Shown here piece after piece: positions 9,440 through 58,872 of a stretch of 64,000 nt of DNA. A program made the translations under genes and the position numbers. The stretch is from Salinimicrobium sp. TH3 (GTDB taxonomy: Bacteria > Bacteroidota > Bacteroidia > Flavobacteriales > Flavobacteriaceae). Within the stretch, counting starts at the first letter, position 1. Each line of letters starts with the position of its first letter. The notes beneath the pieces were generated by a model that was not told the origin of the DNA, ran no database searches, and saw only the letters and a program-made list of their open reading frames with translations. Location: NCBI RefSeq assembly GCF_026676115.1, contig NZ_JAPONB010000003.1, positions 310,001 to 374,000 on the forward strand. The letters run 5' to 3'.

Positions 9440-9457
9440 AATTTGTTACATTTTGCA

Positions 9458-9465: not shown

Positions 9466-9561
9466 AGGAAGTTAGTGGAGAGAGAATGTCGGAATAGATA
9501 AATTAATGTTAATATGAACGAGCCCTGGGGCAGCGGGTCCAAAATCCTGTAATTTTAACAT

Positions 9562-12009
9562 ATGAAGAATCAAAAGGAATTTCCCCTCGAAATAAAGATC
9601 AGTTTTCACAAGATCATTGAACAGTATCGAAAGCAACTGGAGAATGAATCAAGCATGATATCCAAAGATTACCTGGGAAAGATACTCGATTATATTTCTG
9701 GTTTTCCTGTTTTAGAGGATGGAATTGAAAATTCCGAAGATCTTAATAAACTAAAAGATCCAATTAGGATCCTCATGAAAGATCTTTTTCCTGAAATTCT
9801 GTCGGGTACCCAAATCAAAGCGATTTCTGTTCCTTTTCACAATGTCATTTTTAATTCTACTCTTAAGTTTAGAGAAATACTTGCTGGTGCGGGAAAAGAT
9901 TTCAACTTAAATATGAGAGATCTTAGTAAAGACCTTGATTATATCTATGCCTGTATTCTAATCCTCAATAAGTATTATGGTTATGATATGGATTTTTCAA
10001 GACCGTTATATTATGATATACCCGATGAAAATGGCATTTTAAGGCACTATAGAATTGAACTTGATTCCCAATTTATGGAGCTGGAACCTGGCAAAAATGC
10101 TTGTGAAATAACGAAAGAAGATGTTGATGAATTGATCCAAAATATTGAGAATGTGGAATTTTGGAAACAAAAATTTCCACCCAAAAGCTGGATCTTTAAG
10201 GGTTTCACCATAATTACTCTTACAGATGTGACTGTTGATGATGCGATCTCCGATCTAAAAACAACTTTGTTGCAAAGAAATACTTCAGGAAATGAAGAGA
10301 TGGAGAAGTTTGAGGAGATTTTTAAATCCATATATAAGATTCCAAATCTTAGGGTGGGATTTACCATGTATAATGAACAGGAATCGACTTTTGAGAGAAT
10401 GATGGGAAATCGTTCACCAAGTTTCTTGCTTCGGGAGAAGAAAACGGTAGACTGTAGGGAGGCTCTCGAGGAGGAAGCTTATCAAAAACTTGTAAAGGAA
10501 CACAATTACTTTAGCATTCCTAACGTCACAAAATTTTCCACAAAATCTTCAGAAAATCTTTTAGCAAAATCCCTTGTTGATGCTGGTGTGAAAAGTGCCA
10601 TTCTGGCTCCTATTGCTAAAAATGGTATTTTGCTTGGAATGCTTGAGTTGGTCTCTTTTGAAAAAAATGTGCTCAACAGCATAAATGCCACAAAACTAGA
10701 AGATATCTTACCTTATATAGTTACGGCTGTAGAACGCAGTAAAGCAGAGTTTGAAAATCGTGTTAAGGCTGTAATACAAAGTGAATGTACTTCTATTCAT
10801 CCCAGTGTTTTATGGATTTTTGAAAAGGAGGCAAGAAAATTCATTAGAGATCTTGATGAAGATGGACTTGCCTCATTTAAGGATATTACTTTCGAAGATG
10901 TTTATCCTTTGTATGGAGAGATTGATATTGTAGCTTCTTCGGAAGCGCGTAATGAAGCTATTCAAAAAGATCTGCTTGATCAACTGGAACTAATTACAAA
11001 CATTGTGTGCCAGGCTGAAGAAATCGAAAAACTGGATATTTATGAGCAGGTGAAATTTCGTATTAAAGAATTTCAGGATGATCTCGCCAACAGTTTGAGC
11101 ACCTCAAGTGAACAAAAAGTTTTCAATTTGCTCCAACGGGAGATAGATCCTGTTATGGCACATATTGAAAAACAAACACCTGTCTTAGAGGAAAAGGTGA
11201 GCGGTTACCGAAAAAACGTGAATTCTGAAACAGGAATAATTTACAATCACCGAAAAAATTATGATGAAGCTGTACAGCAAATCAATCGTACAATGGCCCG
11301 ATACATTGACCGCAGACAAATTGATGCCCAGGAGATATACCCTCATTATTTTGAAAGATATAAGACCGATGGGGTTGAGCATAACATTTATATAGGGACC
11401 TCGCTTACAAATAAAAAAGCCAAACCTTTTGACGAGGTTTATTTATACAACCTGCGTTTGTGGCAATTGAGCACCATGTGCGAAATGGAAAACCGCTTCT
11501 ATCAAATACAGGAAAACATGCCTTTGAAACTGGAAGCTGCTTCCCTGATCCTTGTGTATAATACAACACTTTCTATTCGATATAGGATGGATGAAAAACA
11601 ATTCGATGTAGATGGAACCTACAATGCAAGGTATGAGATCATCAAGAAAAGAATTGACAAGGCACATGTAAAGGGAACTGAAGAAAGGGTAACTCAAAAA
11701 GGGAAAATTGCCATTGTATATTCTAACAGGAAAGATGAAAGGGAGTATTTGCGCTATATCAAATATTTGCAGTCCAAACAGTATTTAGGAGATAAGGTAG
11801 AAAAATTAGAGCTTGAAGATGTCCAGGGAGTTATTGGACTAAAAGCCATAAGAGTGGAAGTGTTATACCACCTAAAAAATGAACAACAAGAAGAGCAGGT
11901 CTTCACTTATGAAGACCTGGAAAAGGTGTTAGGCCAGGTAATAAGCGGCAATAAAACTGAGAACCGAGAGAATGATTCCTACCATAAAGATAGTATAGGT
12001 AATCCTTAA
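9562..12009 (+). CDS. GAF-domain protein of unknown function
   Basis: 815-residue cytoplasmic protein with no signal peptide or membrane segment. Residues ~240-395 have the look of a GAF sensory domain, ending in a strand-turn-strand around NGILLGMLELVSF. The remainder is mostly helical, with many charged residues, and no kinase, cyclase, phosphodiesterase or HTH signature is visible. It is probably a conserved flavobacterial protein whose function I cannot assign. Its final 27 codons overlap the end of the convergent HD-PycTM gene by 81 bases, an unusually long tail-to-tail overlap that both proteins appear to use. Confidence 0.75.
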   Translation: MKNQKEFPLEIKISFHKIIEQYRKQLENESSMISKDYLGKILDYISGFPVLEDGIENSEDLNKLKDPIRILMKDLFPEILSGTQIKAISVPFHNVIFNSTLKFREILAGAGKDFNLNMRDLSKDLDYIYACILILNKYYGYDMDFSRPLYYDIPDENGILRHYRIELDSQFMELEPGKNACEITKEDVDELIQNIENVEFWKQKFPPKSWIFKGFTIITLTDVTVDDAISDLKTTLLQRNTSGNEEMEKFEEIFKSIYKIPNLRVGFTMYNEQESTFERMMGNRSPSFLLREKKTVDCREALEEEAYQKLVKEHNYFSIPNVTKFSTKSSENLLAKSLVDAGVKSAILAPIAKNGILLGMLELVSFEKNVLNSINATKLEDILPYIVTAVERSKAEFENRVKAVIQSECTSIHPSVLWIFEKEARKFIRDLDEDGLASFKDITFEDVYPLYGEIDIVASSEARNEAIQKDLLDQLELITNIVCQAEEIEKLDIYEQVKFRIKEFQDDLANSLSTSSEQKVFNLLQREIDPVMAHIEKQTPVLEEKVSGYRKNVNSETGIIYNHRKNYDEAVQQINRTMARYIDRRQIDAQEIYPHYFERYKTDGVEHNIYIGTSLTNKKAKPFDEVYLYNLRLWQLSTMCEMENRFYQIQENMPLKLEAASLILVYNTTLSIRYRMDEKQFDVDGTYNARYEIIKKRIDKAHVKGTEERVTQKGKIAIVYSNRKDEREYLRYIKYLQSKQYLGDKVEKLELEDVQGVIGLKAIRVEVLYHLKNEQQEEQVFTYEDLEKVLGQVISGNKTENRENDSYHKDSIGNP

Positions 12010-13119
12010 AAGATAATACTTTCGGTTTAGTACCACTCCCAGCATGTAAAGGTCCTTCATAAGAGATTCATACACGTCGGTTTGGTTTTCAAGTATTTCG
12101 TGCATGGCCCACTCAAACTGTTCGTAAGGCATACGATGAAAATTTCCAAAAAACAGTACATTAACATCTCCGTTTTTAATTTGCTCCCGGGTAAATTCTC
12201 CCGAAGTTACATTTGGACGGGTGGACATTATTGCTCCTATTATTGAGGCGACGCTAAAGATCATTAAGATAAAAATCGGGAGCATCATAACCGTACTTGA
12301 GTTGGCAGGAGAAGTGAGATCGGGAATGAAATTAGCGATGGCCAGGGAAATGATGATGGCATTAACCGATAGGAGAATGTTGGCTTTGGCATCTGCAATG
12401 TCACTTAATTTAAGATGATTACGCATAGTGACTCTAAACAGGGTCTGTATCCCTCGGTCTGGGCTCTTATCTTTATATTTAACTTTAAGACGGGCTTTTG
12501 CTTCTTCTTTAGCTAACTTCTTATTTGCTTTTCTTTCTTTATTGAGTAAGTTGTATAGATTTTCATCTTTTTGTTCCTTCCAGTTCTCCCTCGCGTACTG
12601 CGTGTAGAATTGATGCCGCTCGGTAAATAGTTCTATATTTTTTTCAATCCATTCCTGGTGTGAATAATTTTTGATCTTCTGAAGTTTTAACTCCTGCCGA
12701 AGAAATTCGCTTGTTTCTTCAAAGTAATCTTTTGCGAGGTGAGACGTGTCAGCATCTTTGATGATTTTCTCATCAAGTTCTTTTGGCTCCGCCTGCATTC
12801 TGGAAGCCATTATTATCCTGGTAACATCTTCAATAAGGGCCTTATCGGCATTTTGCTTTTCCAGCCACTCCCTGGCTATTTCGGCACTTTTTTCTTCGTG
12901 ACCTGCATATTCTTCGATATACCCTGTGTCATGTAACCAGGCGGCCAGCAGTAGCGGCTCCTCGTGTTTAACATGAATTTCAGATTTTTCGATTAATTCT
13001 TTAGTACTTTTAACGACCCTCTGAGTGTGCTTAAAATTGTGATAAATGAATGTATTGGGTAATTTTTTTCTGAATAGATCCTGTACAAAAATTTCAGCTT
13101 TATCGGTAAGAGTTGTCAT
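11929..13119 (-). CDS. HD-domain protein fused to Pycsar-type membrane effector (PycTM)
   Basis: 396-residue two-part protein. Residues ~10-190 form an HD phosphohydrolase domain with the metal ligands visible: His31, the HD pair His63/Asp64 (WLHDTGY), His74 and Asp122/Asp124. After a Lys-rich coiled linker, residues ~225-396 carry a PycTM/DUF5706-like region: the hallmark ADAKANILLSVNA that starts the first helix, then a second helix (FILMIFSVASIIGAIM) and a final one at the C-terminus. In Pycsar defence, PycTM proteins bind cCMP or cUMP and damage the membrane; the HD domain could hydrolyse a nucleotide signal. No pyrimidine cyclase is seen nearby, so a defence role is inferred only. It is divergent from the metallophosphoesterase gene. 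Confidence 0.82.
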   Translation of the reverse strand: MTTLTDKAEIFVQDLFRKKLPNTFIYHNFKHTQRVVKSTKELIEKSEIHVKHEEPLLLAAWLHDTGYIEEYAGHEEKSAEIAREWLEKQNADKALIEDVTRIIMASRMQAEPKELDEKIIKDADTSHLAKDYFEETSEFLRQELKLQKIKNYSHQEWIEKNIELFTERHQFYTQYARENWKEQKDENLYNLLNKERKANKKLAKEEAKARLKVKYKDKSPDRGIQTLFRVTMRNHLKLSDIADAKANILLSVNAIIISLAIANFIPDLTSPANSSTVMMLPIFILMIFSVASIIGAIMSTRPNVTSGEFTREQIKNGDVNVLFFGNFHRMPYEQFEWAMHEILENQTDVYESLMKDLYMLGVVLNRKYYLLRITYTIFMVGIILSVLSFIAAYYLA

Positions 13120-13174
13120 TCAGTTGTGGTTAGATTTGCACCAAATTACAAAAAAATCCCCCCAATAGTTTTGT

Positions 13175-16100
13175 ATGAGAAAAAATAACAAATTTCTAAC
13201 ACTGGTATTATTTATTGCTGTTACCGCCTGTTCTCCACATTTAAATCAGCTTTATTACGCAAAGGATGAACCTTCAGAAGATTTTGGATATCCTGAGGAT
13301 AAAGTAGTTGAGAAATCTTTTTATCTTTTGGGAGACGGAGGTTATTCCCCCCCCGGAGGTTCTTCAGAAGCTTTATTGGCATTTAAAACCTACATTGACT
13401 CGGTTAAGCAGGTTGGAAATTACACAATTTTTATTGGTGATAATGTATACCCGGCGGGGCTTGTTTCAAAAGATCACCCAGACAGGGAACTTATGGAGTA
13501 CCGCCTGGATGCTCAAATAGATGCCGTGGAAAATTATGATGGCAACCTCTTTTTTGTGCCGGGAAACCATGATTGGTATAATCAGGGATTGACCGGTCTT
13601 AAAAGACAGGCAGACTACTTACGAGAAAAACTTAACAGAGAGGATGTTTTTTATCCTGAACCGGGCTGCGGATTAGCTTCTTTTGAAGTAAGCGAAAATA
13701 TTCAGGTTGTTGTTGCAGATTCGCAATGGTTCCTTGAGGATTGGGATGAGCATCCAAAAATTAATGATGACTGTGCCGAAATTAAAACCCGGGAAGCTTT
13801 TTTTCAGGAAATAGATAGCGAATTAAAGAAGAATCAGACAAAAACAGTGGTATTTGTTATTCATCATCCCTTGTATACTAACGGGCTGCATGGAGGAAAC
13901 TTCAGTTTAACAGATCACCTTTTTCCTACCCAACGTAAGCTTCCATTACCCATACTCGGAACTCTGGCAAATTTTATAAGAACTACAGGAGGAGTCACCA
14001 GTACAGACCTCCAAAATGAAAGATATAAAGGAATGAGAAAACGAATTGAAACTATTGCTTCCCGGTGGGGGAATGTAGTTTTTGTTTCGGGGCACGATCA
14101 TTCTATACAGTATATTGAACACGACAAAATAAAACAAGTAGTGTCAGGATCGGCTTCCAAGGCATCTTATGTGGGATTAGGGAACGATGGATTGTTTGCT
14201 TATTCAGGCCAGGGATTCGCTACCCTGGATATATTTGAAGACGGTTCCTCCTGGATTAGTTTCTATGGGAGCGCAGATAAACAGCCTAAACTTTTATATC
14301 AAAAGGAAGTTATCGCAGCACCGGAACCCTTTAATATTGACACCTTGCCTACTTCTTTTCCCCGCAGTGTCGTGGAGTCAGTTTATGAACCCCGGGATAC
14401 TAATGTATCGAAGGCCTATGAAAGTATTTGGGGAGACAGGTACAGGGATTTGTACGGGACCGGAGTGGAGGTTCCCGTTGCTGTACTGGATACCTTATAC
14501 GGGGGACTTACTGTAGAAAGAGCAGGTGGGGGTCACCAAACACGGTCTCTAAGATTAAAGGATAAGCAGGGAAGAGATTACAATATGCGGGCGCTTGAAA
14601 AAAGTGCTGTGCAATTCCTCCAAACGGTTGCCTATAAAGATACTCCTGTAGAGACTAAATTTGAAAATACCCTTGCCGAGGATGTAATAAAAGATTTTTA
14701 CACCTCTGCGCATCCTTATGCGTTCCTGGCAATACCTACATTATCGCAGGCAGCGGGAATTAACCATACCAATCCACAGTTGTATTATGTTCCCAAACAA
14801 AATGCTCTTGGAGATTTCAACAGTGAGTATGGGGATGAATTATATATGATCGTTGAACGACCCGAAGGAGCCTGGACAGGTTATGAATCTTTTGGCAGCC
14901 CAAATCATGATATTGAAAGCACGGCTGGAGTTTTTGAACGTCTTCGGAAGGATGAGAAATACAGTCTTGACGAATCTGCCTATATAAGAGCAAGAATATT
15001 TGATATGCTTGTGGGCGATTGGGATCGGCATGAAGATCAATGGAGATGGGCTGAAATTGAAAATGAGGAAGGAGATCACCTTTTTAAGCCTATACCTAGA
15101 GACAGGGACCAGGTCTTTTCTAATTTTGATGGGGCCTTTTTAAACACCTTAAGGGGATTAACGGGATTTGCCAATCAATTTGCTGTTTATGATGAAAACA
15201 TTGCTGACATTGAGTGGTTTAACTCGGCCGCTGTTGGGCTGGATAGAAGCTTAATTCAAAATTCCAGTAAAGACGAATGGCTAAGGCAGGCTGAGTTTCT
15301 TCAGGAGCACGTGACAGATGAAGTGATTGAAGAAGCTTTTGAAAAGCTTCCGAAGGAAACCCGGGGAGAATCCACACAACGAATTATTAAAAATCTTAAA
15401 GCCAGAAGGGACAATTTGGTGGACATAACCAGTAGATACTACAATTATTTTGCTGAGTTTGCCATCATTTCTGCTACAGATAAAGATGATCATATTGAGA
15501 TTGAACGCCTTCCGGAAGGAAAAACCCGCGTATCTATTTATAGGATTAAGGATGGAGAGAAGGCAGATGTTGTGAGCAACAGGGTATATGATTCTCAAGT
15601 GACCGAAGAATTGTGGATCTATGGTCTTGATGATGACGATATTTTCGAGGTCTATGGAGAAGCTTCCTCTTCAATTCTTGTGAGGATTATTGGAGGACAA
15701 AATAATGATATTTACAGGATCAAAAATGGCAAAAACGTAAAGGTTTATGATTACGAATCTTTGCCTAACACTGTGGAGATCAACAATGGCGCAGATATTA
15801 CTTTTACAGATAATTATGAGGTAAATGTCTTTGATAAGGATCGGAAAATATTTTCTACAAGTGCCATACTTCCGGTAGTTGGATATAATCCCGATGATGG
15901 ATTTCAGGTTGGCTTAAGCACCTCCTTTACGAAGTATGGTTTCCGTAGAAATCCATTTACAGCCCAACATAGATTTAAAGCGGGCTATTATTTTGCCACT
16001 CAAAGTTTTGATATGCGTTACCAGGGGGAATTTGCCAATGTTTTTGGAAACTACAATTTTCTTGTGGGAGCACATTTTACGAATCCCAGTTATACCCGTA

Positions 16101-45582: not shown

Positions 45583-46980
45583 ATGAATAAGCCCCTTAAT
45601 TTGTATATCCTTAATACACCTCACGATCAATGGGAAAATTATCTTATAAAAGATTTTAAAGAAAAAGGAATAATTGAGAATGCTGTGGTCCAGAAGACGG
45701 TTACTGCCAGCAAGAAAAAGTTTGTAAATCTTGGCTCTAAAGGCTTGAATGGTGAATATAAATTTGTGCCGGTAGATATTTATGATAGGGTGTATGATCA
45801 TCTACCTAAGTTTATAGACATGTATTCGAGGGTTAACCTGCATAATTCGGTTAACTACAATGAACTTAACTACCATCAGTATCTCGATCACTTCAACTTA
45901 ATGATAAATTACTATTATGGTTTATTCACTGAAAATAATATCGATTTGCTCGTCCAAAACAATTCCCCTCATGCCGGCTATGATTACATTCCTCATTTAC
46001 TGGCAAAAGAAATGGGTATAAAGACTTTATATTTAGAACAAACAACTTTTCCTAACAGATTTTTCCACTATTGGGAATTTGAGGATTTTGGAACCTTTAG
46101 TACTACTAAAAGGCTTTTTGGCCCCTATCCTCCAATAGTTATTGAAAATAAATTTGAGAAGGATTTGCCTTATATGAAGGTGAATCGTAGAGATGGCTTT
46201 AAATTGTCTAATATTAAAGGTCCAGCTTCATTACATAATGAGTTGACTAAATATGTTCCCGAATATCAATTGACAAAGGATTTACTTAAATCAAATTACA
46301 GGAGTCAGGCTTATTACCGTTATAAGCTACGAAAGCAATATGAAAAAAACAGAAAGAAACTCGCAGCTGAACTTAATTTAAATGTTCCCTTTGTTTATTT
46401 TGCATTACACCTACAACCAGAAAAAACGACCTCTTCCCTTGGAGGTAAGTATTCGGATCAGGCTTTAGCTTTGGAACATTTGTCCTCTATTTTACCCGAA
46501 AATTGGAAGATCTATGTAAAGGAAAATCCTAAGCAGACTTATTTTATGAGAAATCCTGAATTTTTTAGAAGGTTAGAAAGAATTCCTAATCTTGAATTTG
46601 TTTCCCCTTCATACAATACCTATGACTTAATTAAGAATTCTAAAGTTTGTGCAACCATAACTGGAACCGTTGGTTGGGAGGCTATTACAGGTGGAAAATC
46701 TGTCGTCATTTTTGGACGGGCATGGTATAAAACGCTGTCTGGCGTTTACACCTTCTCTCCTGATCTAGATTTAGAAGAAATAAGCTCTAAACCAGTCAAT
46801 TTTTCTGAGCTTCAATTATCATTTAATGATCTTACTGCCAAATTAGCACCAGGGTATACGTTGAATGAAGTCTATCCTACCTATTATAAGGAATATGACG
46901 TCGACGAAAACGATGTTATTGTTGCCAATAGTCTAGAAAAAATTATACGATCTAAATTTGAAAATAATGTTACAGAATAA
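45583..46980 (+). CDS. Capsule-type glycosyltransferase (KpsS/LipB-like)
   Basis: 465-residue soluble protein. The C-terminal half has the GT-B capsule motif TGTVGWEAITGGKSVVIFG, as in the KpsS/LipB group of capsule transferases, and YVKENPKQT before it. Its place directly in front of pseB makes it a candidate nonulosonic acid transferase, but that is inference. It overlaps nothing; pseB starts within its last codons. Confidence 0.65.
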   Translation: MNKPLNLYILNTPHDQWENYLIKDFKEKGIIENAVVQKTVTASKKKFVNLGSKGLNGEYKFVPVDIYDRVYDHLPKFIDMYSRVNLHNSVNYNELNYHQYLDHFNLMINYYYGLFTENNIDLLVQNNSPHAGYDYIPHLLAKEMGIKTLYLEQTTFPNRFFHYWEFEDFGTFSTTKRLFGPYPPIVIENKFEKDLPYMKVNRRDGFKLSNIKGPASLHNELTKYVPEYQLTKDLLKSNYRSQAYYRYKLRKQYEKNRKKLAAELNLNVPFVYFALHLQPEKTTSSLGGKYSDQALALEHLSSILPENWKIYVKENPKQTYFMRNPEFFRRLERIPNLEFVSPSYNTYDLIKNSKVCATITGTVGWEAITGGKSVVIFGRAWYKTLSGVYTFSPDLDLEEISSKPVNFSELQLSFNDLTAKLAPGYTLNEVYPTYYKEYDVDENDVIVANSLEKIIRSKFENNVTE

Positions 46981-47986
46981 GAGTTTATTAATTACAGGCG
47001 GAACCGGATCATTGGGAAAAGCCCTTACAAATCATATTTTAAAGAAGTATCCAAATATCAAGAAGCTTATAATATTTTCCAGGGATGAGCAAAAGCAGTT
47101 TCAAATGGCCCAGGAATTTCCTTCGGACCAATACCCTCAAATTCGTTTCTTTATTGGAGATGTGAGAGATAAAGAGCGTCTGGTTCGCGCCTTTAAGGAT
47201 GTAGATTATGTAATACATGCTGCTGCAATGAAACATGTGCATTTAGCAGAATATAACCCCGATGAATGTATTAAAACTAATGTAGGGGGAGCACAAAATG
47301 TTGTTCATGCCTGTCTGGAAACCGGAGTGGAACGTGTAGTTGCCCTTTCGACAGATAAAGCCTGTGCTCCTATCAATTTATATGGGGCTACAAAGCTTAC
47401 ATCCGATAAACTCTTTATAGCAGCTAACAATATTAAGGGTTGGAATCCCATTAAATTTTCAGTGGTGCGATATGGAAACGTTATGGGATCAAATGGATCT
47501 GTGATTCCTTTCTTTATGGACAAAAGGGAAGAGGGGGTTTTGCCAATTACAGATCCTGAAATGACAAGGTTTAATATTTCCTTACAAGGAGGTGTGGATA
47601 TGGTTATGCATGCTTTAGAAAATGCATGGGGAGGTGAACTTTTTGTTCCAAAAATCCCTTCATATAAGATTATGGATGTTGCGGAAGCTATTGGTCCGGA
47701 TTGTGAAAAGAAAATTGTAGGGATTAGACCTGGCGAAAAGCTTCATGAAGAAATGATCACTCCTTCTGATTCTTTTTACACCTACGATCTTGGAAAATAC
47801 TATACTATTTTACCATCAAACCCGCGATGGAATCTGGAAGAGTTTAAAGAAAAATTTAATGCTAAAAAGGTTCCCCAGGGTTTCAGATATAATTCTGAAG
47901 AGAACGCAGAATGGGAAACTGTAGATTCTTTACGTTCTTTAATCAAAGAACATATAGATGAAACTTTTGAAGTGGCTCAACAATAA
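46967..47986 (+). CDS. pseB: UDP-GlcNAc 4,6-dehydratase (inverting), PseB
   Basis: 339-residue first enzyme of CMP-pseudaminic acid synthesis. TGGTGSLGKAL at the N-terminus, the STDKA strand and YGATK catalytic pair are as in PseB/FlaA1. I choose ATG 46967, 14 bases inside the preceding gene; a TTG 9 bases earlier is also in frame. The product goes to PseC, which starts 4 bases after its stop. Confidence 0.93.
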   Translation: MLQNKSLLITGGTGSLGKALTNHILKKYPNIKKLIIFSRDEQKQFQMAQEFPSDQYPQIRFFIGDVRDKERLVRAFKDVDYVIHAAAMKHVHLAEYNPDECIKTNVGGAQNVVHACLETGVERVVALSTDKACAPINLYGATKLTSDKLFIAANNIKGWNPIKFSVVRYGNVMGSNGSVIPFFMDKREEGVLPITDPEMTRFNISLQGGVDMVMHALENAWGGELFVPKIPSYKIMDVAEAIGPDCEKKIVGIRPGEKLHEEMITPSDSFYTYDLGKYYTILPSNPRWNLEEFKEKFNAKKVPQGFRYNSEENAEWETVDSLRSLIKEHIDETFEVAQQ

Positions 47987-47989
47987 ATA

Positions 47990-49180
47990 ATGATGAAAAA
48001 TAAACCTATTCCCTACGGAAGGCAGCATATTACTGAGGAAGATATTCAGGTTGTCATTGAAACTCTTAAATCTGATTATTTAACTCAAGGTCCTAGGATT
48101 GAGGAGTTTGAAGAAGCTTTTGCTGAGTACACCGGCAGTAAATATGCAGTGGCTGTAGCAAATGGTACTGCAGCTCTCCATCTTTGTGCTCTTGCTTTAG
48201 GAGTGAAAGAAGGGGATAAGGTCATTACAACTCCAATAACTTTTGCTGCCTCGGCAAACTGCGTAAGATATTGTGGAGGAGAAGTGGTTTTTGCTGATAT
48301 TGATCCGGAGACATATCTTTTGGATATCAATTCAGTTAGAAAATTACTTTCTGAAGCTCCCAAAGGAACTTACTCCGGAATTATTCCGGTAGATTTTGCA
48401 GGACGTGCAATTAATTTGGAGGAATATAAAGAATTAGCAAAAGAATATGAGCTTTGGATTATAGAAGATGCTTGTCACGCTCCGGGTGGATTTTTTACTG
48501 ACTCTCAAAATGAAAAACAACTCTGCGGTAACGGAAAGTTTGCCGATTTAGCGATATTTTCTTTCCATCCTGTCAAGCATATAGCCAGTGGAGAAGGAGG
48601 AATGATAACTACTAATGATGAAGTCTTGTATAATAAACTACTTCAACTTCGTACCCACGGGATTGTCAAGAATGATGATTTATATGAGAATTCCATAGAG
48701 TTTGCTGGTGGAGAGGATAATTATCCGGGCTGGTATATGGAAATGCAGGATTTGGGTTACAACTATAGAATAACAGATTTTCAGGCGGCTTTGGGAAGCA
48801 GTCAGCTAAAAAGAGCTGATAAAGGACTAATTCGAAGAAGAGAAATTGCTCAAAAATATTTTAACGAATTTCAGAATGGAAAATTTATAAAAGGGCAGTC
48901 GGGGGTAGTTGAAGGCCACGCTTACCATCTATATATTATTGAAGTTGAAAACCGGCTGGGACTTTATAATTATTTAAGAGAAAACAAAATTTTTGCGCAG
49001 GTTCATTACATCCCCTGCCATCTTATGCCTTATTATAGAAGTTTTGGATGGAAAGAAGGAAATTTTCCAAAGGCTGAGAATTATTACAGGCACTGCATTA
49101 GTCTGCCAATGTTCCCAACACTCACGACAGAAGAGCAGGAATTTATTATTTCAAAAGTAAAATCTTTTTATGGTGAGTAA
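47990..49180 (+). CDS. pseC: UDP-4-amino-sugar transaminase PseC
   Basis: 396-residue PLP aminotransferase forming UDP-4-amino-4,6-dideoxy-AltNAc. PLP lysine Lys196 in SFHPVKHIASGEGG and DACHAPGG near the cofactor are as in PseC, and N-terminal GRQHITEEDI is diagnostic. A second in-frame ATG follows immediately. Overlaps pseF by 11 bases. Confidence 0.93.
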   Translation: MMKNKPIPYGRQHITEEDIQVVIETLKSDYLTQGPRIEEFEEAFAEYTGSKYAVAVANGTAALHLCALALGVKEGDKVITTPITFAASANCVRYCGGEVVFADIDPETYLLDINSVRKLLSEAPKGTYSGIIPVDFAGRAINLEEYKELAKEYELWIIEDACHAPGGFFTDSQNEKQLCGNGKFADLAIFSFHPVKHIASGEGGMITTNDEVLYNKLLQLRTHGIVKNDDLYENSIEFAGGEDNYPGWYMEMQDLGYNYRITDFQAALGSSQLKRADKGLIRRREIAQKYFNEFQNGKFIKGQSGVVEGHAYHLYIIEVENRLGLYNYLRENKIFAQVHYIPCHLMPYYRSFGWKEGNFPKAENYYRHCISLPMFPTLTTEEQEFIISKVKSFYGE

Positions 49181-49865
49181 AAATCTCTGTATCATACCGG
49201 CACGTGGTGGAAGTAAGCGTATTCCTAGGAAGAACATTAAGAGCTTTATGGGAAAACCCATTATAGCATATTCCATAGAAGCCGCGTTAAAAACTAATCT
49301 TTTTAAAGAGGTGATGGTTTCTACAGATGACACAGAGATCGCTGAAATAGCACGGAAACATGGAGCAGTGGTGCCATTTTTGAGAAGTAGTGAAAATGCT
49401 GATGACTTTGCAACCACGGCAGACGTTCTTTTGGAAGTTCTTAGGGAATACCGAGCCTTGGGGGAAAAGTTTGAAAATGTGTGCTGCATCTATCCTACAG
49501 CTCCTTTTGTTACTGAGGTCAAACTAATAGACGCACATGAAAAATTATTGGCAGAAAATCTTAATGCTGTATTTCCTGTAGTTCCCTTTGGTTATCCTAT
49601 CCAAAGGGCATTGAAAATACAGCAAGAAAAACTGCAGTTCTTTTTCCCGGAATTTGAAGAATCCCGGTCTCAGGATCTTGAAAAAGCATATCATGATGCA
49701 GGGCAGTTTTATTTTGTCAGAACCAGGAGTCTTTTGGAAAGTGGAACTATATTATCAGATAATACCGGTAGCATAATAATAACCGAAATGGAGACCCAAG
49801 ACATAGATAATCCAATAGATTGGGACTTGGCAGAAGTGAAATTTAAGATGTCTTTTGAGAAATAA
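49170..49865 (+). CDS. pseF: Pseudaminic acid cytidylyltransferase PseF
   Basis: 231-residue CMP-sugar synthase that activates Pse with CTP. The N-terminal PARGGSKRIPRKNI nucleotide loop, YPTAPFV, and DAGQFYF in the acceptor loop are typical; PseF rather than NeuA/LegF from context. Translation is coupled to pseC by the overlap. Confidence 0.9.
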   Translation: MVSKNLCIIPARGGSKRIPRKNIKSFMGKPIIAYSIEAALKTNLFKEVMVSTDDTEIAEIARKHGAVVPFLRSSENADDFATTADVLLEVLREYRALGEKFENVCCIYPTAPFVTEVKLIDAHEKLLAENLNAVFPVVPFGYPIQRALKIQQEKLQFFFPEFEESRSQDLEKAYHDAGQFYFVRTRSLLESGTILSDNTGSIIITEMETQDIDNPIDWDLAEVKFKMSFEK

Positions 49866-49906
49866 ATATTCCTTAAGAAGGACTTTGTAATTTTATAAAA
49901 GCGACA

Positions 49907-50911
49907 ATGGCGGACATTAGAAGAAAAGTTTATATAAGAGCAGATGGAAGCCCAGAGATCGGTTTAGGACACTTAGTAAGATGTATAGCTCTTGCTCATA
50001 TGCTGCAAGAAGCTTTTCTCATAACTTTTATTTCAAAAGAAATTCCTGATAGCTTAATAGCTGAACTAAATAAAAACAATTTCCAATTAAAAATTATTTC
50101 TTCTGAAGAAGACTTTTTTAAGCTTCTTTCTGGAGACGAAATTGTACTTTTAGATCATTATGGTTTGGACTCTGAATATCAAAAAGAAATAAAGAAGAAA
50201 GGAAGTAAACTTGTTTGTATTGATGACATACATGACAAAGAATTCTTCGCAGATCTTGTAATCAACCATTCTCCTGGAATTTCTCCAGAGAATTATCAAG
50301 CTCAAAAATATACCAAGTTTGCTTTAGGTCCCGAATACGCACTATTGCGACCTTGTTTCTTGGAAGCTGCCAAATTAAAAAAGGATTTTTTGGAAGTTAA
50401 TAAGGTCATGATTTGTTTTGGAGGATCTGATTTTCAAAACTTAACAGCATCAGTTTTGACAGTCGTGAAGAATATTAAGGAAATTAAGGAAGTTACGGTA
50501 ATATTGGGGGCAGCATATCCTCATAAAGAATCTATTGATGCCATCGCACATGGCGAGTCAAGAATAAGAGTCTTGTCTTCCTTAAATGAAGAAAGCATGC
50601 TTTCAGAAATAAGAAGTGCAGATATATCCATAATACCTTCTAGTGGTATTTTATATGAAGTGATAGCAGCCGGTTCATTCCCCATAATATGTTATTATGC
50701 CGAAAATCAGAAGAAATTCTTTAACTATTTTAAAGAAAGAGAATTGGTGCCGTCTTTCAACGCTTTAGAGTTTTACCCTGATAAATTAAGGGTTATTATT
50801 ACCAGTATATTAAACCAGAAAGAAATAATAGGTGAGATTCCTTTACGCAAGGAGATTGCAGAGTCATCATCGAATCACCTTACGAACTTTAAACAGCTTA
50901 TACATGGATGA
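49907..50911 (+). CDS. pseG: UDP-2,4-diacetamido-altrose hydrolase PseG
   Basis: 334-residue enzyme removing UDP to give 2,4-diacetamido-2,4,6-trideoxy-L-altrose. The N-terminus (RADGSPEIGLGHLVRC) and the GT-B-like CFGGSDFQNL region match the PseG family. pseH begins within its last codons (8-base overlap). Confidence 0.9.
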   Translation: MADIRRKVYIRADGSPEIGLGHLVRCIALAHMLQEAFLITFISKEIPDSLIAELNKNNFQLKIISSEEDFFKLLSGDEIVLLDHYGLDSEYQKEIKKKGSKLVCIDDIHDKEFFADLVINHSPGISPENYQAQKYTKFALGPEYALLRPCFLEAAKLKKDFLEVNKVMICFGGSDFQNLTASVLTVVKNIKEIKEVTVILGAAYPHKESIDAIAHGESRIRVLSSLNEESMLSEIRSADISIIPSSGILYEVIAAGSFPIICYYAENQKKFFNYFKERELVPSFNALEFYPDKLRVIITSILNQKEIIGEIPLRKEIAESSSNHLTNFKQLIHG

Positions 50912-51452
50912 AATAAACTTTACAGAAGTCAAAGAAGCCGATTTGGAAATGATCAGACAGTGGAGAAATTCTCCTGAAGTGGGTCAGTACATGTATACTG
51001 ATAATGAAATATCGGCGGTTCAACAAAAAAAATGGTTTGATAAAATTAGTCTTGAAGAAAACAGTAGATACTGGGTTATTGAATTTCAGAAAAAAAAGTT
51101 AGGGCTGGTATACTTGGTCCATATCGATTTTAAACATAGTAAATGTTTTTGGGGATTTTATCTTGGAGATACTTCTATACGAGGCAAAGGAATTGGTGCA
51201 AAAGTGGAATATAAAGTACTAGAATATGTTTTTGAAGAATTAAAACTAAATAAATTGTGTGGAGAAGTTCTTTCCTTTAATGAAAAGGTAATAAAGATGC
51301 ACGAGAAGTTTGGCTTTAAGCAGGAAGGATATTTAAGGCAACATGTTAATAAAAATGGATCCTTTATGGATGTGGTGAGCATCGGACTTTTAAAGAGCGA
51401 ATGGAAGGTTATTAAAGATGATCTTTATAAAAAAGTTTATAGGTTTTCTTAA
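50904..51452 (+). CDS. pseH: UDP-amino-sugar N-acetyltransferase PseH
   Basis: 182-residue GNAT that acetylates the 4-amino group of the PseC product. Acetyl-CoA loop GDTSIRGKGIGAKV and EVLSFNEKVIKMHEKFGF fit. I start at ATG 50904; a longer frame upstream is out of register with the family. In the canonical pathway this fixes the N7-acetyl of Pse. Confidence 0.88.
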   Translation: MDEINFTEVKEADLEMIRQWRNSPEVGQYMYTDNEISAVQQKKWFDKISLEENSRYWVIEFQKKKLGLVYLVHIDFKHSKCFWGFYLGDTSIRGKGIGAKVEYKVLEYVFEELKLNKLCGEVLSFNEKVIKMHEKFGFKQEGYLRQHVNKNGSFMDVVSIGLLKSEWKVIKDDLYKKVYRFS

Positions 51453-51488
51453 TCATGAAGAAGAAGTTTAACTATTAAAAATACAGGT

Positions 51489-51890
51489 ATGGATTTAAAA
51501 ATTGGTGATAAAGCTTCCTTAACCAAAGAATTTTCAGAGCAAGATGTAAAAGATTTTTCCGTCCTTTCTGGAGATCAGAACCCAATTCACTTCGACGAGG
51601 AGTATGCTAAAAAAAGTCGTTTTGGACGCAGAATAGTACAGGGGCCTATGGTGGTTTCCTTAATTGGAGGAATTTTAGGATCTCAACTTCCGGGACCCGG
51701 GACAATTTATTTAAGCCAAGAAACTTTTTTTAAAAAACCGGTTTTTTTAGATCAAAAACTTACAGCTTGGGTTGAGGTAGTTAATGTAAGAAAGGATAAA
51801 CCTGTAGTGACGTTGAAATCCTGGGTGGAAAATGATGAAGGAGAAGTTGTTGTGGACGGTACTTCAGTAATTTTGTTTTTAGATACATAA
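51489..51890 (+). CDS. MaoC-type (R)-enoyl-CoA hydratase in pse cluster
   Basis: 133-residue single hot-dog domain. The hydratase motif is intact: GDQNPIHFDEEYA with Asp29 and His34, the same spacing as the catalytic Asp/His of PhaJ, then RRIVQGPMVVSLIGG. It would hydrate a short enoyl-thioester to an (R)-3-hydroxyacyl-thioester. It has no known role in the standard Pse pathway; its place between pseH and a second GNAT suggests it makes a 3-hydroxyacyl donor for sugar N-acylation. Substrate chain length is unknown. Confidence 0.85.
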   Translation: MDLKIGDKASLTKEFSEQDVKDFSVLSGDQNPIHFDEEYAKKSRFGRRIVQGPMVVSLIGGILGSQLPGPGTIYLSQETFFKKPVFLDQKLTAWVEVVNVRKDKPVVTLKSWVENDEGEVVVDGTSVILFLDT

Positions 51891-51909
51891 GCTATAATTT
51901 GAAAATCTG

Positions 51910-52359
51910 ATGAAAAAAGCTGAATTGGAACTTAAATTACGGGGTGTTGTCGAGGAGGATAGTTTCTTGTTGTTTAAGTGGGCTAATAGTTCAGATGTCA
52001 GAAAAAATGCAATAGATCCTCAAAGGATTGAGTGGAAAAAACATCAAGTCTGGTTTAGAGAAAAAAATAGTAGTCCTTATTCCAAGATTTATATTTTAGA
52101 AAATAAAAACCTCCCTATCGGTCAGGTAAGATATGACAGGAAAGAGCAAGGCTTTTGGTATATCGATTTTTTTATTGAACAAAAATTTAGAGGATTGGGT
52201 CTAGGAAAAAAAATAATCGGACTCAGTAGAAGTACCATTTCCGGTCCGGTAAAAGCTCTGGTGAAAAAGGAAAATTTGGCTTCTCATATAGTTTTTCAGA
52301 AACTGGGATTTGTAAAAACAAGAAGTGAAAAAGGAATTGTTGAGTATTTACATAAATAG
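51910..52359 (+). CDS. GNAT-family acyltransferase in pse cluster
   Basis: 149-residue second GNAT, shorter than PseH, with the cofactor loop QKFRGLGLGKKIIG and the C-terminal NLASHIVFQKLGF. It may transfer an acyl other than acetyl, consistent with the adjacent MaoC hydratase. Its stop codon abuts the next ATG, so it is tightly coupled to the formyltransferase. Confidence 0.82.
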   Translation: MKKAELELKLRGVVEEDSFLLFKWANSSDVRKNAIDPQRIEWKKHQVWFREKNSSPYSKIYILENKNLPIGQVRYDRKEQGFWYIDFFIEQKFRGLGLGKKIIGLSRSTISGPVKALVKKENLASHIVFQKLGFVKTRSEKGIVEYLHK

Positions 52360-53040
52360 ATGAGAAAATTTGTTGTTCTATCCGAAAAATCATGGCATAA
52401 AAGTCTCCATTCTTCCCTTCAAAAGAAATTTAAAGAAGTAGATTGGATACTTATAGATAAAAAGGCAGAGTTTTCTTTTGAAGAATTAGCGAAATTACAA
52501 CCGGAAAAAGTCTTTATACCACATTGGTCACATATTATTCCGCCCAGAATTTTTTCCAATTTTGAATGCATTGTTTTTCATATGACAGATTTGCCATTCG
52601 GACGTGGAGGAAGTCCTCTTCAAAACTTAATTGCCAGTGGACATACAAAAACAAAGATTTCGGCTATAAGAGTGGAGAAGGGATTAGATACCGGTCCGGT
52701 ATACTTAAAAGAAGATTTACAATTACTGGGTACAGCTCAGGAAATTTTTATTAGAAGTTCCAATGTTGTTGAAGAAATGATTTTTGAAATCGTTGAAAAG
52801 GATTTAAAACCTATATCACAAGAGGGAGAAGTAGTTGAATTTAAGCGTCGAAAACCGGAACAAGGGAATATATCCAATTTAGAAGAAGCTAATAAAATAT
52901 TTGATTATATAAGAATGCTGGACTGTGAAGGTTATCCCCCAGCTTTCATTGAAACCAGTAATTTCCGTTTCGAATTTACAAGAGCTTCATTAAAATCTGA
53001 AAAAGAAATAATAGCAGATGTTAGAATCATTAAGAAATAA
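52360..53040 (+). CDS. Formyltransferase-family protein in pse cluster
   Basis: 226-residue protein with the N10-formyl-tetrahydrofolate formyltransferase fold. The His-containing loop FHMTDLPFGRGGSPLQNL and the Asp loop GLDTGPVYLK align with the catalytic His and Asp of Fmt and sugar N-formyltransferases, but the usual Asn two residues before the His is replaced by Val (CIVFH). It is too short for Fmt and lacks the tRNA-binding C-terminal domain. A sugar N-formyltransferase role is inferred from context. Confidence 0.78.
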   Translation: MRKFVVLSEKSWHKSLHSSLQKKFKEVDWILIDKKAEFSFEELAKLQPEKVFIPHWSHIIPPRIFSNFECIVFHMTDLPFGRGGSPLQNLIASGHTKTKISAIRVEKGLDTGPVYLKEDLQLLGTAQEIFIRSSNVVEEMIFEIVEKDLKPISQEGEVVEFKRRKPEQGNISNLEEANKIFDYIRMLDCEGYPPAFIETSNFRFEFTRASLKSEKEIIADVRIIKK

Positions 53041-53731
53041 AAGAATTTTAGTTGTCGTAGCCCATCCCGATGATGAATTACTGGGGTTGGGTGCTACCAT
53101 GCATAAGCTGATCCATGAATATTCCTGTGTAATAAGAGCCGTTATTTTGGGGGAGGGTATTACATCCCGATCTGAAAAACGCGATCCTGAAAAATGGCAA
53201 AATGAGTTAAAAATTCACAGAATGAATATAGAAAGTGCCCGTAAAGCAATAGGATATGATTCGGTTGGGGTCTATGATTTTCCAGATAATCGATTTGATA
53301 CGGTTGCTTTGCTGGATATAATTAAAACTGTTGAAAAGGAAAAGCAGCAGTTTCATCCTGAAGTAATATTTACTCATCATCGGGGTGATGTGAACATTGA
53401 TCATCAACGGACTTTTGAGGCTGTTATTACGGCATGTCGACCTCTGGAGGAAGAAAAAGTAAAAATTATAATTTCCTTTGAAACTCCATCCGGCACGGAG
53501 TGGATAGCACCATCAGATCATGCAAAGCAATTTATCCCCAATTTATTTTTTGAAGTATCTGAAGAGGCAGTAAATGCGAAAATAAAAGGAATGGAAAGTT
53601 ACGAATTTGAGAAAAGAGCCTATCCGCATCCTAGATCACCTGAAGCTTTAAGGATTCAGGCACAGAGGTGGGGGGTGGTAGTAGGAAAAAGCTTTGCGGA
53701 AGCATTCTCGATAGTTAGGGTAGTAGAATGA
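53018..53731 (+). CDS. PIG-L-family deacetylase in pse cluster
   Basis: 237-residue LmbE/PIG-L zinc deacetylase: AHPDDE at residues 15-20, THHRGDVNIDHQR as the second metal loop. It starts 23 bases inside the formyltransferase gene. These enzymes remove N-acetyl groups from sugars; one plausible job is to free an amino group for formylation or 3-hydroxyacylation by its neighbours. Confidence 0.88.
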   Translation: MLESLRNKRILVVVAHPDDELLGLGATMHKLIHEYSCVIRAVILGEGITSRSEKRDPEKWQNELKIHRMNIESARKAIGYDSVGVYDFPDNRFDTVALLDIIKTVEKEKQQFHPEVIFTHHRGDVNIDHQRTFEAVITACRPLEEEKVKIIISFETPSGTEWIAPSDHAKQFIPNLFFEVSEEAVNAKIKGMESYEFEKRAYPHPRSPEALRIQAQRWGVVVGKSFAEAFSIVRVVE

Positions 53732-53813
53732 CCTAATCTTTTTGAATTTAATTTTCACCTATCTTACAACTATGTTAGTTATGGTTACTTAGGTGAAGAA
53801 AAAAATGAGATAT

Positions 53814-54857
53814 ATGAAAATTAATAATGTAGAAATTGGAAAGAATAATCCTGTTTTTATTATAGCGGAACTATCTGCAAATCATAATGGTAGTTTAGAA
53901 GTAGCTTTGGAAACAATTAAAGCAGCAAAAAGAACGGGAGCAGATGCCGTTAAAATCCAAACCTACACTCCAGACACCATGACCCTCGATGTGAAAAAAC
54001 CAGATTTTATGTTGAGTCAGGGGACAATATGGGATGGTCAATATCTTCACGATCTATACAAAGAAGCTTATACACCATGGGAATGGCACGAACAGCTGTT
54101 TAAAACGGCAGAAGAAGAAGGATTGATTTGTTTCTCATCTCCTTTCGATGCAACGGCCGTAGATCTTCTTGAAAGTTTAAATGCTCCTGCATATAAGATT
54201 GCTTCTTTCGAAATTACCGACATACCTCTCATAGAACTGGTAGCTTCTAAGGGCAAACCGGTTATTATCTCCACAGGTATTGCAAAAAGAGAAGATATAG
54301 AACTGGCATTAAACGCCTGTCACAGGATGGGGAATAATAATGTGGCGCTGTTAAAATGTACATCTTCCTACCCGGCACCTATTGATGAAGCAAATATGGT
54401 AATGGTGAAGGATCTGGCAGAAAGATTTAATGTGATATCCGGCCTTTCAGATCATACAATGGGAAACACGGTTCCGGTAGTCGCAACCTGCTTTGGAGCA
54501 AAAATTATAGAAAAACATTTTATTTTGAATAAAGAAATTGGAGGACCTGATGCTTCCTTTTCCATGGACGAAAAAGAATTTACTTCTATGGTAAATGCTG
54601 TTCGGGAGGCAGAAAAAGCAATTGGAATAGTAGATTATTCACTTACTGAAAAACAAAGAAAAGGAAGAGATTTTTCACGTTCACTTTATGTGGTTAAAGA
54701 TATTAATAAAGGAGAGTTGATTTCAGAAGAAAATGTAAGATCGATAAGGCCAGGTTTTGGTATGCATCCTAAGCATTATTCTGTCGTTCTAGGGAAAAAG
54801 GTTCGAAGCAGCCTAATAAAAGGAACCCGACTTTCATTTGAAGATTTAGAAGAGTAA
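53814..54857 (+). CDS. pseI: Pseudaminic acid synthase PseI
   Basis: 347-residue NeuB-type enzyme condensing the altrose derivative with phosphoenolpyruvate to Pse. IIAELSANHNGS and KIQTYTPDTMTLD are PseI-like, and a C-terminal SAF domain (SLYVVKDINKGELIS) is present. ATG 53814 gives the normal N-terminus; ATG 53805 and a GTG at 53793 are also in frame. It closes the pse block. Confidence 0.92.
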   Translation: MKINNVEIGKNNPVFIIAELSANHNGSLEVALETIKAAKRTGADAVKIQTYTPDTMTLDVKKPDFMLSQGTIWDGQYLHDLYKEAYTPWEWHEQLFKTAEEEGLICFSSPFDATAVDLLESLNAPAYKIASFEITDIPLIELVASKGKPVIISTGIAKREDIELALNACHRMGNNNVALLKCTSSYPAPIDEANMVMVKDLAERFNVISGLSDHTMGNTVPVVATCFGAKIIEKHFILNKEIGGPDASFSMDEKEFTSMVNAVREAEKAIGIVDYSLTEKQRKGRDFSRSLYVVKDINKGELISEENVRSIRPGFGMHPKHYSVVLGKKVRSSLIKGTRLSFEDLEE

Positions 54858-56973: not shown

Positions 56974-57065
56974 CAGTAGTTTTTGTTATCTGTGTTTGAT
57001 TAATTAAAAAACTAGAAATTAACTGTTATTCCGGTGAAGAGGCTTTGGATGAAAATATTTGTAAG

Positions 57066-57947
57066 ATGATAGAAATCAGGGAAATTAATTACAATCAGGA
57101 TCTGGATCAGATAGTAAATCTAATCCGGAACAATTTAGCTTCCAACTATACAATCCGCTTCTTTAAGAGAAAACATCTAGACAATCCTTTCGGCCCTTCT
57201 TATGGATTAGTGGCTTTAAATGAAGAAAAGGTTATAGGGGTAAGAATGGCTATGAAGTGGGAATTTTTAAATTTAGAAAATGAAGAAATTTTAAAGAGCC
57301 TGAGAATGGTCGATACTGCAGTAGACCATAAATTTAGAAAAAGGGGGATTTTTAACTCTCTGAATTCAAAATTTCTTGAATCTATCGGAAAAAATTACCG
57401 GTGTATTTTCAATACTCCTAATAAAAGTAGTATCCCCGGAAATTTGAAGATGGGTTGGCAGGCATTGGATGATATCGGGTACTGCAAAATTGGTATTGCC
57501 AATTTTATGTCCCGGAGCCTAAAGTTAAGTTTTATTCCATTAAATGAAATAAGATATAAGAATCACAAAAGTAATTCAGGATTTACAACTAATTTTTCAG
57601 ATTCTTTTTTTTCTTGGCGTTATTCCCTGAGCGACTATCAGGTAGCTTCTTTTAATGAAGAAAAATCTTTAATAATTATTTTTAAAACTATTCGATTAAA
57701 AGGCTTCAAGGTACTTGTAGTAGAGGAAATTTTTGGAGATCCCATATATTTTTCAAAAATGATAAATTCTTTAGCGAAAAGATTGAAAATTTTTTTGATT
57801 TTCTTTTTAGATAGTGAGCACTGGAAGAAAATTAAATTTATTGGATCTGTTAAGAGATATAAGCCTACTGTTTTGTTTAGAGGAGAAAATTGCCCGTTGT
57901 CGAGACATACCAGATTTTCTTTAGGGGACCTGGCAGGAATAATTTAG
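57066..57947 (+). CDS. GNAT-family acyltransferase, twin 1
   Basis: 293 residues. N-terminal acyl-CoA fold with FRKRGIFNSLNSKF near residue 95-108 and the signature HLDNPFGPSYGLVAL. I start at ATG 57066; a TTG 21 bases upstream is in frame. A tandem paralogue follows 13 bases later. In glycan loci this family acts on amino sugars; the substrate here is unknown. Confidence 0.82.
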   Translation: MIEIREINYNQDLDQIVNLIRNNLASNYTIRFFKRKHLDNPFGPSYGLVALNEEKVIGVRMAMKWEFLNLENEEILKSLRMVDTAVDHKFRKRGIFNSLNSKFLESIGKNYRCIFNTPNKSSIPGNLKMGWQALDDIGYCKIGIANFMSRSLKLSFIPLNEIRYKNHKSNSGFTTNFSDSFFSWRYSLSDYQVASFNEEKSLIIIFKTIRLKGFKVLVVEEIFGDPIYFSKMINSLAKRLKIFLIFFLDSEHWKKIKFIGSVKRYKPTVLFRGENCPLSRHTRFSLGDLAGII

Positions 57948-57960: not shown

Positions 57961-58872
57961 ATGGATCAGGTAATAATTAAAAGAAAAAAGATAGACAAGA
58001 TAGAATTTCGGGAAATAAATTATGAACAGGATTTGGATGATGTTATTGGATTAATTCAAACCAATTTAAGATCTGATTATTCGGCCGATCTGTTTAATTG
58101 GAAGCATCTACAAAATCCTTTTGGAAGATCCTACGGGTTATTGGCTTTAGATGGAAAAAAGATTATAGGAGTCAGAATGTTCATGTTTTGGGAATTCAGG
58201 TTTCCTCAAAATAAAGAAATAATAAGAGCTATTAGACCTGTAGATACTGTGACCGATTTGGAATATCGCGGAAAGGGCCTCTTTAAAAAATTAACCCTGC
58301 AAGGACTTCATAATTGCCGGAAAAAATATGATATTGTTTTTAACACTCCTAATAAAAATAGTCTTCCCGGCTATTTAAAGATGGGATGGGAAAAGATTCT
58401 TGACGTAGATTCCTTTAAGGTGGGCCTACTCAATCCCTTCAGAAAAATATCGCCCGGGGTTATAATAAAAATAGATGATCTTGTTTTAAAAGAGTCTGCA
58501 GAGTTTAGTAATGATTCAGTAACCACCTGTAGAACTTCCGATTTTTACAAATGGAGATATCAGGATTCTGAAGGATACCAAATAGTGTTTTTTGAAAAAG
58601 AAGACACCTATGTAGTTTTCGGCAAGAGAAAGTGGTTTACGATAATCTATGAAATTATAGGAGCAACGTTCCTAAATATAAGCATGTTAAACACTATAGG
58701 AATTAAAACAAAGAGGCCTTTTGTTTATTACTATAATAGCCACTCTTTTGAGCAAGTAAATTTCTTAGCTACTATTAAAAAAGATAGACCTGTTATTGTA
58801 CTCAAAAATTGTGATTTAAAATATAATGAGCAAATCAGTTTTTCTTTGGCTGATTTAGAAGCTAAATTTTAG
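57961..58872 (+). CDS. GNAT-family acyltransferase, twin 2
   Basis: 303 residues, clearly a paralogue of the previous gene: FREINYEQDLDDVIGLIQTN, HLQNPFGRSYGLLAL and FNTPNKNSLPGYLKMGWE match in order. The C-terminal halves differ, suggesting separate acceptor specificity. Confidence 0.82.
   Translation: MDQVIIKRKKIDKIEFREINYEQDLDDVIGLIQTNLRSDYSADLFNWKHLQNPFGRSYGLLALDGKKIIGVRMFMFWEFRFPQNKEIIRAIRPVDTVTDLEYRGKGLFKKLTLQGLHNCRKKYDIVFNTPNKNSLPGYLKMGWEKILDVDSFKVGLLNPFRKISPGVIIKIDDLVLKESAEFSNDSVTTCRTSDFYKWRYQDSEGYQIVFFEKEDTYVVFGKRKWFTIIYEIIGATFLNISMLNTIGIKTKRPFVYYYNSHSFEQVNFLATIKKDRPVIVLKNCDLKYNEQISFSLADLEAKF

Follow-up and report, generated by a model that had tools for sequence, protein, structure and literature searches.

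A MaoC-type hydratase gene beside pseH in a Salinimicrobium pseudaminic acid operon and its possible part in sugar N-acylation

A pseudaminic acid (Pse) operon lies in a 64,000-nucleotide stretch of Salinimicrobium sp. TH3 (contig NZ_JAPONB010000003.1, positions 310,001 to 374,000 of the forward strand; hereafter the window), and in it a gene for a predicted MaoC-type hydratase directly follows pseH. We propose, with confidence that is evenly balanced, that the operon makes Pse with non-standard N-acyl groups, and that an (R)-3-hydroxyacyl thioester made by MaoC would be transferred by PseH and not by GNAT2, the second GNAT of the operon. The genes form a co-directional, operon-like run (window positions 46967–54857, + strand) in the order pseB-pseC-pseF-pseG-pseH-MaoC-GNAT2-FT-PIG-L-pseI, where FT denotes a formyltransferase-like protein. 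All six of PseB, PseC, PseF, PseG, PseH and PseI score above their NCBIfam equivalog cut-offs; the full standard set is therefore present and the four same-strand open reading frames (ORFs) between pseH and pseI are extra, in agreement with the first-pass annotation, which had located these four genes and placed them outside the standard pathway. The source genome (3.69 Mb, completeness 100) is referred to as G000, and G and L numbers denote compared genomes and loci.

PseB and PseC together produce UDP-4-amino-4,6-dideoxy-AltNAc (AltNAc, N-acetylaltrosamine). In the proposed route MaoC, as a PhaJ-type enzyme, would hydrate a short enoyl thioester, most likely crotonyl-coenzyme A (CoA), to an (R)-3-hydroxyacyl, probably 3-hydroxybutyryl, thioester, and the adjacent PseH would transfer this group instead of acetyl. 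The recipient would most likely be N4, corresponding to C7 of Pse, a position that we favor slightly. PIG-L and FT would act as a separate and widespread module, most likely removing the N2 acetyl group (C5 of Pse), which FT would then replace with formyl or another one-carbon group. GNAT2 would belong with PseG, FT and PIG-L as an N-acyltransferase, probably using acetyl. Additional N-acyl chemistry on Pse, and MaoC as the probable source of an (R)-3-hydroxyacyl thioester, were both put forward in the first-pass annotation, and sequence comparison supports both.

MaoC and its association with PseH

The best PDB match of MaoC is 1iq6, an (R)-specific enoyl-CoA hydratase (E 6.9e-30), and residues D29, N31 and H34 are invariant across the alignment (41 of 41 rows, one of which repeats the window protein). 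The Asp and His of the D-x-N-P-x-H motif are catalytic in PhaJ-type hydratases. MaoC is the sole PF01575 match in the genome, which also has no match to FdtA or to PhaC synthase (PF07167, for which the same search was positive in one of 14 control genomes), and there is thus no evident role for it in polyhydroxyalkanoate or 3-amino-sugar synthesis.

Relatives of PseH at E≤1e-25 are present in three of 397 family genomes, G000, G087 (51%) and G1017 (31%), and MaoC is directly 3' of pseH in two of these, G000 and G087, with the two ORFs overlapping in G087. The G087 gene order is pseB-pseC-pseF-GNAT-pseH-MaoC-pseI, and its 19 kb locus contains no FT, PIG-L, GNAT2 or PseG match. A phylum search (395 genomes, 1e-28) identified G646 (37%) as the only PseH match besides G000. 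In the closest cluster, L002 (which seems to be the G686 locus), the arrangement is pseG-hexapeptide transferase-GNAT2-FT-PIG-L; both pseH and MaoC are absent and the hexapeptide protein is in their place, and from this one comparison we infer what may be a cassette exchange.

Groups of both kinds considered here are known on such sugars, with N-formyl reported in PMC6388019 and N-hydroxybutyryl at C5 or C7 in PMC6388019 and PMC4881576. PMC4881576 reports 3-hydroxybutyryl Pse in Sinorhizobium meliloti Rm41 and S. fredii HH103 (at N5 and N7 respectively in its table), and instead Pse5NAc7NAc in NGR234. The Rm41 locus contains pseB-C-F-G-H-I, and its 19 kb include no MaoC, FT or PIG-L match; the NGR234 stretch has no pseH match, and a GNAT2-like GNAT (46 bits) is ~2.3 kb upstream of its pseB ORF. 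The contrast fits PseH as the hydroxybutyryl transferase, but the position of the group differs between Rm41 and HH103, an Acinetobacter baumannii PseH also scores 94 bits, and with Rm41 (3-hydroxybutyryl) at 127 the PseH bit score is not diagnostic as a donor marker. Rhizobia make polyhydroxybutyrate, so that (R)-3-hydroxybutyryl-CoA is at hand there, and the lack of a PhaC match in G000 may be why this genome needs a hydratase.

Several observations weigh against this proposal. The pseH-MaoC adjacency is seen in two genomes, one of which is the window's own. The PseH relative in G1017 adjoins AMP-ligase-like and short-chain dehydrogenase/reductase (SDR)-like ORFs (named by eye), and that in G646 is followed by a glyoxalase-family protein, a protein matching FkbH_N and NIF, and pseI. 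PseH relatives, the A. baumannii protein among them, are also found where acetyl may be the group added, and the sugar of another A. baumannii strain is described as di-N-acetylated (PMC11494974). Rm41 has 3-hydroxybutyryl Pse and pseH with no MaoC match, so a hydratase within the cluster is not required. The marine flavobacterium Flexibacter maritimus is reported to carry an (S)-3-hydroxybutyramido group (PMC3210612), the (S) form not being the expected product of a PhaJ-type hydratase. Finally, three acyltransferases, GNAT2 included, face two known amines, and the MaoC proteins of sugar loci do not form one clade (see below).

MaoC was sought in 299 family genomes (E≤1e-10), 395 genomes of the order (1e-12) and 12 of the genus (1e-8), samples that overlap and that each include G000; matches were found in five, four and two genomes respectively, with a union of eight. 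Pse operons with a dedicated hydratase are thus rare, as was anticipated, and we found no report in the open-access literature of MaoC in a pse operon or O-antigen gene cluster, or of pseudaminic acid combining 3-hydroxybutyryl with a formyltransferase, both being weak absences. The idea of donor-making genes within glycan loci is itself not new, since flagellin glycosylation islands are described as containing genes of fatty-acid synthesis, FabZ among them in one strain (PMC4875605).

In all eight genomes of the order with a match (G000 included), MaoC is situated amid surface-polysaccharide genes (by eye, with Pfam checks), and in six of them a recognised acyltransferase is immediately beside it: PseH (G000, G087), an LpxA-like protein (G047), hexapeptide proteins (G866, G292) and a member of the aminoglycoside-3-N-acetyltransferase family (G832). 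The gene after MaoC in G682 has no Pfam match, and in G157 the MaoC domain is within a 394-aa ORF that resembles the MaoC-SDR fusion of L018, with no acyltransferase directly beside it; G388 has another such fusion, recognized by similarity. An FdtA-family ketoisomerase precedes MaoC in G047, G682 and G866, and in G583 from outside the class. In G047 and G583 the gene after MaoC encodes an LpxA-like protein; the two match LpxA models at E 8e-42 to 4e-40 but do not reach the equivalog cut-offs. LpxA is itself a transferase of (R)-3-hydroxyacyl groups.

Two further loci are of note. L125 (positions 4667-15476, in G388) is an amino-sugar locus with FdtA and a ketoacyl-ACP synthase III (Pfam), together with SDR-like, MaoC-SDR-like, FkbH-like, AMP-ligase-like and GNAT ORFs (by eye or similarity), perhaps a complete acyl-making set. 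In Salinimicrobium sediminilitoris (L006), FT-PIG-L is surrounded by nonulosonate synthase genes and PseG-type genes, two of each, and in G682, which is probably the same genome, the MaoC of the FdtA locus is ~14 kb from FT on the same contig.

PseH and GNAT2 might instead both use acetyl-CoA, with MaoC acting on a different thioester (e.g. 3-methylcrotonyl-CoA to give 3-hydroxy-3-methylbutyryl) or outside the sugar altogether. An acetyltransferase role is ascribed to PseH (PMC4964394), 3-hydroxy-3-methylbutyrate is reported as an N-acyl group in Shewanella (PMC3210612), and MaoC relatives in other Bacteroidota are found in many contexts. A phylum search matched 63 of 395 genomes, and we inspected by eye 29 loci besides the window's, with 1.5-kb flanks (other matches, including four from the same class, are outside this count). 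Two of the 29 are sugar loci (L093, L109), 20 have no sugar-gene neighbour, and the neighbour is glycosyltransferase-like in six (L100, L101, L103, L105, L111, L113) and sugar-nucleotide-transferase-like in L088. The position within the operon, the adjacency to PseH in two genera and the eight of eight surface-sugar contexts in the order argue against a role of MaoC outside the sugar, though MaoC may still make a methyl-branched donor; we consider this alternative as a whole rather unlikely.

A single origin of the sugar-locus MaoC proteins was considered and rejected: the tree gives several, with seven changes, at least three of them forced by well-supported branches. Seven compares with a mean of 9.9 in shuffles, 6 of 500 of which were as low, on a tree with many long branches, and these proteins are thus more clustered than in most shuffles; a clade of the window and G087 proteins is neither supported nor rejected (p-AU, approximately unbiased test, 0.33). 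Both this scatter and the rarity of MaoC in the family (5/299) would be in keeping with maoC being a passenger, or a recent insertion, that plays no part in Pse acylation. However, the maoC frame is intact, its D29, N31 and H34 are kept, its GC content (0.368) is like that of the window (0.369), and MaoC proteins of different branches adjoin acyltransferases in unrelated sugar loci, so that such an origin seems very improbable.

GNAT2 and the FT-PIG-L pair

The four extra genes were initially regarded as one inserted module, and this view is not sustained: FT-PIG-L, often with GNAT2, is common in nonulosonate loci and MaoC is the rare piece. We compared the best 80 of 153 FT relatives from a contig scan, and the counts describe this FT family, not all nonulosonate loci. 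FT relatives span Bacteroidota, Bacillota, Proteobacteria, Planctomycetota and two archaea, among others. In 69 of the 80 loci PIG-L lies no more than 300 bp from FT, and in 76 a nonulosonate synthase is within the stretch. Eight of the 11 loci without a close PIG-L have one 545–1942 bp away, and none was found in L032, L037 and L063, the first two stretches ending no more than ~160 bases past FT. By these comparisons FT-PIG-L is a common module beside nonulosonate synthases. Of the other two extra genes, GNAT2-type proteins recur in 44 of the 80 loci, and a relative of the window MaoC is present in one stretch (L018, ~5 kb from FT).

GNAT2 scores below the cut-off of the PseH equivalog model (TIGR03585, 36.1 against 93.1). 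Its AlphaFold model has a predicted local distance difference test (pLDDT) score of 94.9 and its best fold match is 3eo4, a GNAT, in a search that carries no information on the donor. In 18 of the 44 loci the GNAT2-type protein ends right before FT. There are also fusions of GNAT2-type domains among the 80 loci, with PseG in 12, with a second GNAT in five (both halves Pfam-confirmed in L003, the other four by similarity), with FT in L063 and L066, and with PIG-L in L056 and L061; those with PseG, FT and PIG-L tie GNAT2 to these proteins and not to MaoC. In L005, L007, L014 and L022 no GNAT was found beside FT-PIG-L other than a PseG-GNAT2 fusion, which suggests that in these loci GNAT2 acylates N4 once and that PIG-L and FT exchange the N2 group once.

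These data bear on the route originally proposed, in which GNAT2 would transfer the MaoC-made (R)-3-hydroxybutyryl group to the amine freed by PIG-L, and FT would formylate the other. MaoC and GNAT2 do adjoin, 19 nt apart, PIG-L could free N2, and N-formyl and N-hydroxybutyryl groups are both known on such sugars (PMC6388019). Against this, GNAT2-type proteins are in 44 of the 80 FT loci and a relative of the window MaoC in one; in each of the two pse loci with MaoC its neighbour is PseH, and in G087 there is no GNAT2, FT or PIG-L match; and FT is missing the usual Asn (see below). The assignment of GNAT2 as the hydroxyacyl transferase is thus not supported, and the route as a whole seems to us improbable.

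A distinct GNAT (~190 aa), free-standing or joined to GNAT2, is seen in the Bacteroidota nonulosonate loci L003, L009, L010, L011, L015, L017, L026, L030 and L120, and no PseG match was seen within these stretches.

PIG-L has AHPDDE and DH motifs in its translation (by eye). The best PDB match of FT is 1zgh (237.5 bits), the nearest solved structure, which is listed as a methionyl-tRNA formyltransferase. Formyltransferases use an Asn-His-Asp triad, with the Asn two residues before the His, and this Asn is visible in the 4iqf sequence aligned with FT. At that position the 81 FT proteins (the 80 loci and the window) have Val in 57, Ile in 19, Met in three, Leu in two and Asn in none; H74 and D110 are conserved in 81 of 81, and T76, D77, Q88 and N89 are among the other invariant residues. 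Because the family is without the canonical catalytic Asn, formylation by FT is uncertain.

A second divergent FT-like gene (FT2) shares the locus with FT in L018, L019, L021, L025, L033, L034, L036 and L042, and further in L043, L048, L050, L051, L056, L064, L071 and L073. Four aligned FT2 proteins have Val two residues before the His and Asn four before it. The best PDB match of the L021 FT2, compared for closeness to a solved sugar formyltransferase, is again 1zgh (57.7 bits).

A more general and distinctly tentative idea is that in Bacteroidota sugar loci a donor-making enzyme and its cognate N-acyltransferase are swappable cassettes, and that FT-PIG-L is a widespread C5 de- and re-acylation module whose FT has a formyl-transfer site without the canonical Asn. 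Examples of such cassettes would be PseH-MaoC (G000, G087), PseH with glyoxalase-fold and FkbH-like proteins (G646), and MaoC with LpxA-like proteins (FdtA loci). N-acyl groups on Pse alter its recognition by phages, antibodies and lectins, and the source of unusual acyl donors is seldom clear. With a hydratase gene beside PseH as a marker, 3-hydroxyacyl-Pse would be recognizable from sequence, and the FT-PIG-L pair would likewise mark C5 editing in many loci of bacteria and some of archaea; 3-hydroxybutyryl, probably made by MaoC and placed on Pse, would be an unusual bacterial route to coat variation.

Operon layout and comparison with known systems

The ten genes are listed in Table 1. They are tightly spaced from pseH on, with gaps of 36, 19, 0 and -23 nt and then 73 nt between PIG-L and pseI; the pseH ATG is at 50904, giving an 8-nt overlap with pseG. 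Surrounding the operon are surface-polysaccharide genes, including those for an ABC transporter, a pyruvyl transferase-like protein, a capsule-type protein, glycosyltransferases and a polysaccharide deacetylase. Downstream are two tandem ~300-aa genes (57045–57947 and 57961–58872) that are similar by eye, with weak matches to the Acetyltransf_9 GNAT family (20.5 and 34.6 bits respectively; cut-off 25). A scan of promoter-like and terminator-like sites was uninformative (26 against 28.6 in shuffles, and 5 against 5.3).

Table 1. Genes of the pse operon in window coordinates. The pse genes were scored with NCBIfam equivalog models and the four extra genes with Pfam, each against the model cut-off.
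Gene and product	Coordinates	Strand	Match
pseB, UDP-GlcNAc 4,6-dehydratase (inverting)	46967..47986	+	TIGR03589 512 bits vs cut-off 407.75
pseC, aminotransferase creating free N4 amine	47990..49180	+	TIGR03588 456.1 bits vs cut-off 423.5
pseF, CMP-Pse synthetase	49170..49865	+	TIGR03584 301 bits vs cut-off 205.7
pseG, UDP-sugar hydrolase	49907..50911	+	TIGR03590 202.6 bits vs cut-off 153.55
pseH, GNAT N-acyltransferase; proposed 3-hydroxyacyl transferase and MaoC partner	50904..51452	+	TIGR03585 155.7 bits vs cut-off 93.1, scanned from 50907
MaoC, PhaJ-like (R)-specific enoyl-thioester hydratase (predicted)	51489..51890	+	PF01575 MaoC_dehydratas 67.9 bits vs cut-off 27
GNAT2, second GNAT	51910..52359	+	Acetyltransf_3 29.2 bits vs cut-off 25.4
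FT, formyltransferase-like	52360..53040	+	PF00551 Formyl_trans_N 31.9 vs 26.1; PF21553 Formyl_trans_C_2 87.9 vs 27
PIG-L, LmbE-type N-deacylase (predicted)	53018..53731	+	PF02585 72.6 bits vs cut-off 28.2
pseI, pseudaminic acid synthase	53805..54857	+	TIGR03586 506.5 bits vs cut-off 340.25

Compared with the pseudaminic acid pathway PseB-C-H-G-I-F, the window has all six enzymes plus MaoC, GNAT2, FT and PIG-L. PhaJ (PDB 1iq6) belongs to the same family as the window MaoC, which is 45% identical to an Aeromonas caviae homologue and keeps the D-x-N-P-x-H motif; PhaJ supplies polyhydroxyalkanoate synthesis, whereas the window MaoC is in a Pse operon of a genome with no PhaC match. The FdtA-type loci (G047, G583, G682 and G866) resemble the window in having MaoC beside a sugar-modification gene set, and differ in that their genes are for a 3-amino-3,6-dideoxyhexose (judging from FdtA and an aminotransferase), with an LpxA-like transferase in two of them (G047 and G583) where the window has a GNAT. 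Halorubrum sp. PV6 makes 5-N-formyl-legionaminic acid, with the N-formyl at C5 and a predicted formyltransferase in the locus (PMC6137143); that sugar is legionaminic and archaeal and its formyltransferase is known by prediction, whereas the window is bacterial and encodes Pse. The sugar proposed here would resemble the Pse with 3-hydroxybutyryl reported in the K-antigens of S. meliloti Rm41 and S. fredii HH103, in Shigella boydii type 7 and in Acinetobacter K93 (PMC4881576, PMC3628348, PMC11494974).

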